Below are positions 1,316 through 32,426 of a stretch of 32,528 nucleotides of DNA, piece by piece. The DNA is from Bacteroidota bacterium (GTDB lineage: Bacteria; Bacteroidota; Bacteroidia; UKL13-3): the NCBI GenBank assembly GCA_034439655.1, contig JAWXAU010000140.1, positions 1 through 32,528 of the forward strand. The letters are read 5' to 3'. A model generated the notes under the pieces. The model was given only the letters and a program-made list of their open reading frames with translations. It did not search any database and was not told where the DNA came from. The number at the start of each line of letters is the position of its first letter. Within the stretch, counting starts at the first letter, position 1. Position numbers and translations under genes: made by a program.

Positions 1316-1356
1316 TAATACGAATTCTTAAACTAAAAGTCCAAAGACTATTATAG

Positions 1357-1477
1357 CTTTTAGAATGGTGACGCCGAACTACAGCCCGAAAGCCCCGCTT
1401 AATCCCGATAATTATCGGGATTAAGCGGGGGGGTAGTCTCTTTCTTTTGGACTATTATATATTGAGTTTCGGTATAA
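1357..1477 (+). repeat. Dispersed palindromic intergenic element, copy A
   Basis: The two ends, 1357-1384 (TTTTAGAATGGT..GCCGAACTACA) and 1449-1477 (GGACTATTATATATTGAG, then TTCGGTATAA), recur in inverted orientation at 11676-11753 with only a few differences. The middle differs between the copies. Inside, TAGTC and GACTA form a small stem, and the outer CGAACT and AGTTTCG segments are roughly complementary. The element ends where the antitoxin remnant's homology ends. It is non-coding and may be a MITE- or REP-like mobile repeat. Confidence 0.65.
1393..1430. repeat. Perfect 38-bp palindrome inside copy A
   Basis: Arms of 19 bp (CCCCGCTTAATCCCGATAA and its exact reverse complement) meet with no loop. 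There is no T tract on either side, so it is not an ordinary terminator. It fills the part of the dispersed element that is absent from the second copy and looks like a separate nested insertion. Confidence 0.85.
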
Positions 1478-1618
1478 TTTCTTCGCCAAATCATTTGCAA
1501 TCTCAATAGTTTCAGCAAATGTTCTTCATTGTGCTACCAAGCCTTGAATGCTATCGCAAGTTGCTAGATAATATCCTTCAGGTAGTTTTTCTATATGCAA
1601 GTTGATTATTTTTTCCAT
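1475..1618 (-). pseudogene. Decayed HicB-like (DUF1902-type) antitoxin gene
   Basis: Reading from ATG at 1618 gives MEKIINLHIEKLPEGYYLAT, then CDSIQGLVAQ, an in-frame TGA at 1528-1526, then RTFAETIEIANDLAKKL. From memory of the family, small HicB/DUF1902 antitoxins read LPEG.YLATSD.IQGLVAQGRT..ETIEIA.DVA.KL, so one change of a glycine GGA codon to TGA explains the stop. The match on both sides is strong enough to call a dead gene. Its homology ends at the boundary of the dispersed repeat, after which the frame runs into repeat sequence and stops at 1421. No HicA-type toxin is adjacent, so only the antitoxin fossil remains. Confidence 0.7.
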
Positions 1619-1694
1619 CTGCTATTTTAATTTAAATGTTATAAATTTAATAGATTTAGATCCTGAAAAAGTTTGAAAGATGAAAGTGGAAATC

Positions 1695-11675: not shown

Positions 11676-11753
11676 TTATACCGAATCTCAATATATAATA
11701 GTCCCAAAAAGGGGGACTAGACATATTGTAGTTCGGCAGTACCATTCTAAAAA
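11676..11753 (-). repeat. Dispersed palindromic intergenic element, copy B
   Basis: Read on the minus strand this repeats both ends of the element at 1357-1477: TTTTAGAATGGT..GCCGAACTACA, then GGACTATTATATATTGAG, then TTCGGTATAA. It lacks the 38-bp palindrome. Here the inner stem is better, TAGTCCC and GGGACTA around a 7-base loop. It lies between the tRNA terminator and a dead gene. Confidence 0.65.
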
Positions 11754-11797
11754 CTAATCCGCCACAGGTGGAGAACTATTAAAGTTTAAGAATGGGT

Positions 11798-12248
11798 CTA
11801 AAATGCCCGACCAAATCCAATAAAAATATATTCTGGTAAGGCAATCCCCATTCTAAAAACTTTCTTTCCACCGGGATTTTGCTTTCTAAATGCGAGCGAC
11901 AGAGAAGGCTCAAAACCTTTGTTATATTTATCATAATAGGTGCCGATTGCTACTTCAAAATGTAAGTTCTCCCTGCGTGTAAAAAATCCAATTTGTGGAA
12001 TAAAGTACATATAATCGCCATCCCACCCAGATGTTTATCCTAAACCGCTGCGAACGAAGGTTGGAATTTTTGTTTTGAAAAGTCTTTCATAATACAATGT
12101 TGCGGATATGTTCAACTCAAAATAGCCAATCGAGCCATATACTGAGTTTGCCTTAAACTCTTTTTTTTTTCAATGAATCGGAAGGAATTTCTACAGTGCA
12201 TATTTTTAAAGAACCTAAGAAAACTATATATAGAAAATACTTTTTCAT
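11798..12248 (-). pseudogene. Broken gene for a small outer-membrane-type protein
   Basis: ATG at 12248 starts MKKYFLYIVFLGSLKIC, a signal-peptide-like N-terminus. The frame is lost in a run of A residues (T run near 12162-12170), after which the other frame reads EFKANSVYGSIGYFELNIS and IPTFVRSGLG. An in-frame TAA (12037-12035) follows, and then the open part MYFIPQIGFF.. to the end. The repaired product would be about 149 residues, with alternating aromatic strands and a C-terminal phenylalanine, as in outer-membrane beta-barrels. Two separate lesions make a true pseudogene more likely than a read error, although the homopolymer lesion alone could be one. The family is not recognised. Confidence 0.65.
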
Positions 12249-31317: not shown

Positions 31318-31392
31318 GGGGGCATAGCTCAGCTGGTTCAGAGCATCTGCCTTACAAGCAGAGGGTCACAGGTTCGAACCCTGTTGCCCCCA
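31318..31392 (+). tRNA. tRNA-Val (TAC)
   Basis: The 75-base cloverleaf has acceptor arms GGGGGCA/TGCCCCC, anticodon stem TCTGC/GCAGA with loop CTTACAA (anticodon TAC, valine) and T arm ACAGG/CCTGT with TTCGAAC. CCA is not encoded. A truncated integrase lies 224 bp downstream, so the 3' part of this gene is a likely attachment site. Confidence 0.96.
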
Positions 31393-31616: not shown

Positions 31617-32426
31617 ATGATACAAAAACTTTCAATCCTATTTTGGCTCAACAAATCAAAAGCAAATTCCATTGGCTTTGCCCCTATAATGTGGCGTATT
31701 ACTATTGATGGGGTGCGAAGTGGCAACTATAGCACTGGCAAGCGTATAAATTCGCAAGGCTGGGACAATAAAAAACAGCGGGCTACCTGTGTGATAGTGA
31801 ACGGTAAAATAAAACAAATAGAACACGATTTAGATAAAAAATATTTGGAACTATATAATACAAACGGCTCAGTTGATGTGTTCACACTTTGCGACTATTA
31901 TAATAAGAAAACAGATATAAACCCAAGCTTGCAAAACGTGTGCGAAGCTTATTTTATGCACCTACAGGACATGGGCGAAAAAAAGAAAATGGCAAGCGGC
32001 ACGGTACGCAAATATAAAAACTATTATAATAATATTGCAAGCTATTTAATAAATGCACATAGCCACATAGCAGCCGAACAATTCGACCTAAAGCAAGCTG
32101 ACTTGATGGATGCACATATAAAAAAAGGCAAGGGTTGCCAGCAGCTTAATGTAAATAAAATACTGCAATTTGTTTTCAATTCACTTGCACACGCCCGCGG
32201 GCTAGGCCGTATAAGTAAAAACCCATTAACGGGCTTGTGTTTTGCACCCATTGCGGCCAAGAAACCTACCTTCCTCACCAGCATAGAAATTGCCATGATA
32301 CAAAACCACAAATTTGCAAGTACCAGGCTTCAGCATGTTGCCGATATGTTCCTATGGCAGTGCCACACGGGGCAAAGCTTTTTAGACTTTGCAAACTATC
32401 ATAATAATACTAGACCTCTTTCATAA
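31617..32426 (+). pseudogene. Truncated tyrosine recombinase (integrase)
   Basis: This 269-residue open frame has the N-terminal arm-binding domain (about 20-85; ITIDGVRSGNYSTGKRINSQ, QGWDNKKQRAT) and the SAM-like core-binding domain (about 104-205) of Bacteroidota phage/transposon integrases. The catalytic domain begins (FLTSIEIAMIQNH .. MFLWQCHTGQSFLDFANY) and then breaks off into HNNTRPLS and a stop. The His-x-x-Arg and Tyr of the catalytic set are absent, and the first Arg place reads Ser (TGQS for TGLR), as I recall for IntDOT-like enzymes. It cannot be active as it stands. Its place behind a tRNA is that of an integrated element. Confidence 0.85.

Follow-up and report, generated by a model that had tools for sequence, protein, structure and literature searches.

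The window, a 32,528-nucleotide stretch of DNA from a Bacteroidota bacterium (hereafter, the host), contains two copies of a short repeat, and the coordinates of their parts are collected in Table 1. Copy 1 adjoins a remnant frame (1478-1620, minus strand) that ends at the repeat, carries one internal stop between MEKIINLHIEKLPEGYYLATCDSIQGLVAQ and RTFAETIEIANDLAKKL, and presumably resembles an antitoxin of the HicB type. Copy 2 sits just past a tRNA gene, and a broken frame (11799-12150, minus strand) ends at this copy in ...YIFIGFGRAF; our guess is that this frame is possibly the remnant of an outer-membrane barrel. The preliminary description had placed both copies next to dead genes, which agrees by eye with both frames; a Pfam search with the frame at 1478-1620, at E up to 0.01, returned no family. 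Elsewhere in the window, a tRNA gene (31318-31392) is followed by an ORF (31617-32426) with an integrase-like Arm-DNA-bind_5 domain, and the pair may be the edge of a genomic island.

Table 1. Positions of the two element copies and their parts in the window.
Feature	Position	Strand	Description
MITE copy 1	1319..1474	+	156 bp, longest hairpin B class, tips TACG...GGTA
Left target duplication of copy 1	1316..1318	+	TAA
Right target duplication of copy 1	1475..1477	+	TAA
Hairpin A of copy 1	1319..1370	+	Shortened in this copy; limits from alignment with other copies
Hairpin B of copy 1	1372..1474	+	38-nt palindrome in loop
MITE copy 2	11679..11798	-	120 bp, shortest main class, tips GACC...GGTA
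Flank at GGTA end of copy 2	11676..11678	-	TTA on + strand, TAA on - strand
Flank at GACC end of copy 2	11799..11801	-	TAA on + strand, TTA on - strand

The shared ends that had been described at 1357-1477 and 11676-11753, in inverted orientation, are present at those places and recur far beyond chance. At up to 3 mismatches, the left block gave 220 matches (95 + 125) in the host genome (3.5 Mb in 205 contigs) and the right block gave 216 (97 + 119), compared with 0 for the reversed control of each; a 23-mer from the centre of the element gave 223 host matches at the same threshold, and its reversed controls gave 0 in the host. The span proposed for the element was too narrow, as 39-48 more bases before the left block belong to it, and the two described stretches proved to be pieces of one element whose full copies occupy 1319-1474 on the plus strand and 11679-11798 on the minus strand. 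We fetched 60 host stretches with copies. Together with the window they contained 67 left blocks, of which 58 were accompanied by the further left end; complete elements, 115-163 bp long, numbered 49. The mean pairwise identity among aligned host copies was 0.89. The repeat is a gene-free, small mobile DNA element with approximately 220 copies in the host, and it has the short length, the many copies and the lack of a transposase gene that are expected of a MITE. By simple arithmetic (about 220 copies of about 135 bp), it accounts for some 30 kb of host repeats, and its copies interrupt genes and are present at many contig ends of the assembly.

Each element has the layout TACC(A/T).. hairpin A ..GGTA-A-TGCCGA.. 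hairpin B ..TCGGTA, in which two adjacent predicted hairpins meet at GGTA-A-TGCC between the tips TACC and GGTA. Hairpin B falls into three main size classes of approximately 75, 87 and 116 bp, measured from the left block to the end, and its loops differ by palindromes such as TCCCGAAAGCATTCGGGA or longer ones of up to 38 nt. The centres therefore do differ in length and content, as had been proposed, and the variable centre consists mainly of different small palindromes inside the loop of hairpin B. The tip TACC was exact at the left end in 37 of 48 host copies and at the right end in 43 of 48. The inner motif TAGTCCAA was found within 1 mismatch at the right end of 45 of the 48 copies and at the left end of 2, such that the terminal inverted repeat typical of a MITE is weakly developed in the host. 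As the left end has mostly lost the inner motif, it either withstands change or is recognised in another way. The outer end of hairpin B in copy 1, read inward, is TACC-N16-TAGTCCAA; when folded alone, this copy showed pairing unlike that of the other copies shown. In copy 2, the two flanks were not identical and the tip was changed.

The 3-mers flanking both tips were identical in 34 of 49 complete host copies, as expected of the target site duplication of a mobile element. Across 10,000 permutations of the right flanks, identical pairs averaged 22.1 and reached at most 33. The flanks differed in the remaining 15 copies, among them copy 2 of the window. TAA or TTA stood at each end of 42 copies, as TAA/TAA in 22, TTA/TTA in 12 and a mixed pair in 8. 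These flanking repeats are direct, because a stem extended outward would have put TAA opposite TTA. When match lengths of 1-8 bases were tested on 48 copies (excluding the doubtful copy L064), 33 copies matched over 3 bases, 4 over 2 bases and none over any other length. Additionally, nearest-neighbour elements agreed in their TWA flank at a rate close to that of shuffled data, both on the right (24 of 42, versus 21.7) and on the left (21, versus 21.6), and two near-identical copies (L062 and L068, 1.5% apart) were flanked by TTA/TTA and TAA/TAA, respectively. The flanking TWA is thus a property of the insertion site rather than of the element lineage.

To look across the insertions, we joined the flanks of 48 copies, kept one TWA and counted the frames that ran across the junction. 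This gave 12 spanning frames, 8 of them of at least 90 residues, and in controls shifted by the removal of 1 or 2 bases, 7 and 9 frames spanned the junction, 4 and 6 of them with at least 90 residues; given these controls, the bulk count is weak evidence, and individual cases are stronger. Five of the 12 frames were chosen for a domain scan, and after removal of the element and one TWA, domain matches crossed the junction in 4 of the 5. DUF2306 matched over 147 residues at positions 1-147 of 147, through a junction at residue 177. Matches to DUF2442, Glyoxalase and Response_reg likewise ran through their rejoined junctions, and the fifth frame had a WG repeat match on one side of the junction only.

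The congener G002 was compared at orthologous places, and the element was absent from five of them (L030, L054, L064, L070 and the place of window copy 2), at which one or both flanks aligned. At the place of copy 2, G002 had approximately 48 bp, compared with approximately 800 bp plus the element in the host. The comparison was uninformative at L027 and L039, as well as at copy 1 of the window, since G002 does not have the upstream gene that adjoins this copy. No base-exact empty site was recovered in G002 because the spacers were too diverged, and we infer the empty sites from the interrupted genes. The earlier suggestion of a small non-autonomous mobile repeat is supported by approximately 220 copies with defined ends, a 3-bp duplication that follows the site, insertions into genes and the five absences in the congener; the opposite outcome, only two copies and no empty sites, was not obtained.

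We then considered whether the repeat could instead be a dispersed structural RNA or terminator kept for its function and not recently mobile. Such a reading draws on the predicted fold, since 14 chosen representatives folded more stably than approximate dinucleotide shuffles (z of -2.3 to -10.7, calculated on one strand with RNA parameters), and on the tRNA gene beside copy 2. In hairpin A of these representatives, arms paired with their own partner gave -13.1 kcal/mol on average, compared with -6.9 for swapped arms; in hairpin B the difference was less clear (-12.0 versus -9.6 kcal/mol), and the own partner was the best of all swaps in 7 of 14 cases for hairpin A and 6 of 14 for hairpin B. 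However, the RNAalifold consensus of the 48 host copies contained a two-sided change in 0 of 22 pairs, and a palindrome does not by itself imply a need for the fold, as inverted duplication of an end also yields one. No Rfam family matched the element at the gathering score, and the window gave two tRNAs only. Together with the gene insertions, the target duplications and the near-restriction of the repeat to one of the 395 genomes sampled, these observations make an RNA kept for function extremely improbable.

The two hairpins would also fit a REP/REPIN-like or IS200/IS605-derived element, whose single-stranded hairpins are moved by a Y1 transposase of the RAYT type. In the host, two Y1 matches that fall short of the Pfam cut-off are found close to copies (we labelled these frames RAYT, as an assumption of ours), and a similar Y1 frame lies approximately 230 bp from a relative of the element in the genome G422. 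The closeness of Y1 genes is non-specific, because other IS genes, too, contain or adjoin copies; in the locus L074 (G000:C88), one of the Y1-like frames, at 1279-1773, has even been truncated by a copy of the element that is flanked by TAA at each end. REPIN/RAYT and IS200/IS605 derivatives make no target duplication and carry the right cleavage site within the element, and the present element has a duplication that varies with the site, so its identical 3-bp flanks are at odds with a right cleavage site carried by the element. Mobilisation by Y1/RAYT, which the hairpins and the nearby Y1 genes had prompted, was dropped on this ground and is very unlikely.

Two further transposase genes in the host lie within or near copies. 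In the locus L072 (G000:C83), an IS occupies approximately 430-1865 in the hairpin A loop of a copy; its DDE_Tnp_1 gene, which we take to belong to an IS4-like element, is a passenger within that copy and was rejected as a partner; the inserted IS has ends of its own and 9-bp flanks that, judged by eye, are nearly identical. The DDE_Tnp_1 gene in C95, which we assume to be IS1182-like, lies near a copy and was likewise rejected.

A search of 395 sampled genomes of the class, the host included, gave matches in the host and one 3-mismatch match elsewhere. An exact 22-mer from the centre had 0 occurrences in genome_contigs and 0 in viral_contigs, collections that the host's own records possibly lie outside, and a 121-bp query matched 1 of 39 relatives, through a 24-bp stretch of the central palindrome. 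A covariance model built from 48 host copies and searched in the 57 other genomes of the host's family revealed full-length relatives in 11 of the 57 (19 matches, E of 5e-5 to 7e-3). We read 13 of the 19 matches; most had, by eye, the double-hairpin layout with a recognisable centre, a layout towards which the set leans because the model was made from host elements. By eye, 9 of the 13 had identical TWA flanks, the right motif was found within 1 mismatch in all 13 (one at a spacing of 15), and the left motif was found within 1 mismatch in 8 (two at a spacing of 15). Within the host's family, cousins of the MITE are found in further genera. G001 and G002, which belong to the host's genus, gave no covariance-model match; G002 had one cousin elsewhere (L151), and G001 had two end-signature matches near contig ends.

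When both ends of the relatives were read inward, they reduced to one signature, TACC-N16-TAGTCCAA. The exact form preceded by the target, TWATACC-N16-TAGTCCAA, occurred 54 times in 15 of the 57 genomes, versus 4 times for the reversed control, and this search was independent of structure. The loci fetched contained 94 short inverted end pairs, some nested in others, and 21 of these were flanked by the same TNA at either end. Of the 21, 15 had a loose centre motif, although a few of the motif matches, such as that in L139, are doubtful. We also observed that small GC-rich loop palindromes recur across genera, with TCCCGAAAGCTTTCGGGA in L139 and L171 and a near form in the host. CCCGAA-N2..8-TTCGGG was found 15 times in 796 kb of G002, compared with 0 in three 2-base-block shuffles, and these palindromes possibly represent a second, smaller class of dispersed palindrome.

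The same ends were found around a transposase. In the genome G415, a split IS630-like transposase lies between a pair of exact ends, over a span of 1,182 bp that includes the TWA at either side. Both frames matched the NCBIfam model transpos_IS630 (E of 2e-15 and 3e-25; 56.8 and 89.2 bits against NF033545, each under the whole-protein cut-off of 100), and a DDE_3 match lay above its own cut-off; the flanks of this IS were unequal, TAA and TTA. A DDE_3 search of 58 genomes gave matches in 5, with those in the host, G001 and G415 over the cut-off. The only DDE_3 match in the host (C91:70384-70791; PF13358, E of 3e-23) belongs to an IS whose left tip is TACC-N16-TAGTCCAA, preceded by GAA. This IS has two overlapping frames over the 1,147 bases to the contig end, where it runs off the contig, so its right end and duplication are not seen; its second frame was 68% identical to that of G415 and 50% to that of G001. 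Of 28 bases compared, 22 were shared by the right ends of the MITE consensus and the G415 IS; the left end of the host IS agreed with the right and left ends of the consensus at only 18 and 14 of 28, respectively. An A-rich run opens the frame overlap in 8 of 9 IS copies printed at that offset, which suggests that the two-frame transposase may be made by frameshifting.

In genome_contigs, 164 loci encode relatives of the IS transposase, nearly all of them in Bacteroidota, and 80 were kept for end analysis; one of these, L184, is probably the same record as G415:C124. The ends paired within 4 mismatches in 47 of the 80, at least three of which look wrong (L198, L214 and L236), and identical 3-mers flanked 39 of the 47 (TTA 23, TAA 14 and TCA 2). 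The complete chromosome of Flavobacterium sp. NK2020 has 24 such loci; the two ends were exact in 22, and each of these copies duplicated exactly 3 bases (TTA 11, TAA 10 and TCA 1). The proposed partner thus has a DDE_3 transposase that matches IS630 models and does not make the 2-bp TA duplication of IS630; in view of the NK2020 copies, we name it IS630-like by its transposase and not by its footprint.

A different DDE transposase that makes 3-bp TNA duplications was weighed as well, since the IS5 group (IS1031-like) duplicates TNA. Two DDE_Tnp_4 matches, one over the cut-off, lie at host contig ends (L144, G000:C19; L145, G000:C168). The IS beside them seems by eye to end in GACCTCTTTCATAATT, whereas the IS630-like elements have both the end signature of the MITE and its duplication; neither a MITE block nor a MITE tip was found at L144 or L145, and this candidate was rejected. 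We consider movement by another DDE transposase of this kind very improbable. An end similar to GACCTCTTTCATAATT was also seen after a broken copy in L053.

Taken together, the element is with high probability a MITE that moves with an IS630-like transposase, makes a 3-bp TWA duplication and consists of two foldback modules. Because its two foldback modules lie next to each other, end-like sequences are present four times, once at each tip and twice back to back at GGTA-A-TGCC. The MITE inserts at 5'-TWA-3' and duplicates those 3 bases, most likely through cut-and-paste transposition in trans by the DDE transposase of an IS630-like (Tc1/mariner-related) IS. The assignment of the partner draws on the shared bipartite ends (TACC, 16 bases and TAGTCCAA) and on the same kind of 3-bp TNA duplication, and both the movement by this transposase and its cut-and-paste manner are read from sequence comparison. 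The partner may also be a different one or have been lost, since a DDE_3 match is missing from most of the family genomes that carry MITE-like ends.

Cardinium is a member of the Bacteroidota. Its MITECca01 is a lineage-specific repeat of approximately 240 bp with a parental IS in the same genome, as far as the available part of the source describes it; that parent is ISCca4 of the IS982 family, in contrast to the IS630-like partner proposed here (PMC9769881). The nearest known MITE of an IS630 element is RUP of Streptococcus pneumoniae, which in the portion of the source available is 107 bp long with 108 copies, is also inserted in IS genes, and is proposed to be moved by IS630-Spn1 (PMC2229807). 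RUP is similar in that its ends resemble those of an IS630-family element, and differs in that its sites contain TA, whereas 3 bases (TWA) are duplicated and two hairpins are present here (PMC2229807); RUP resides in S. pneumoniae, while the IS relatives of the present MITE are found in Bacteroidota. The CIR repeats of Caulobacter and Brucella consist of two long inverted repeats, that is, two arms and a linker, which recall the two hairpins; in the same portion of that source, CIR has no terminal inverted repeat marked, its duplication is questioned and it has a GANTC motif (PMC2229807).

With the IS630 family and its member ISY100, the partner shares a DDE transposase with N-terminal HTH domains; both G415 frames match transpos_IS630. 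The available part of the ISY100 paper regards insertion at TA, with duplication of these 2 bp, as a hallmark of IS630/Tc1-mariner transposition, and ISY100 duplicated TA in 34 of 39 products, in contrast to the 3-base TNA and the transposase in two overlapping frames found here (PMC2170065). Departures from TA are known within the IS630-Tc1-mariner group, as Fot (pogo superfamily) used TAA in 341 of 385 cases and Sailor used TATA in the majority; the portions of these two papers available report no TNA for a bacterial IS630 element (PMC7386202, PMC8533490). Similarly, the open-licence literature, searched at title and abstract level and without ISfinder, yielded no IS630 element with a TNA duplication. 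This kind of MITE is known; its variants here are the build from two hairpins and, among bacterial IS630-like elements, a TNA footprint of 3 bp, neither of which was described in the titles and abstracts covered by that search.

A broader reading, which we offer tentatively and regard as rather doubtful, is that a Bacteroidota branch of IS630/Tc1-mariner elements shifted from TA to a 3-bp TNA target and gave rise to MITEs whose four ends form two hairpins, with transposition aided by the inner pair of ends or by the folded state itself. The end signature of the MITE provides a simple handle for finding relatives. A bacterial branch with a strict 3-bp TNA duplication, if true, would offer an inroad to what determines strand-transfer spacing among the IS630/Tc1-mariner elements.
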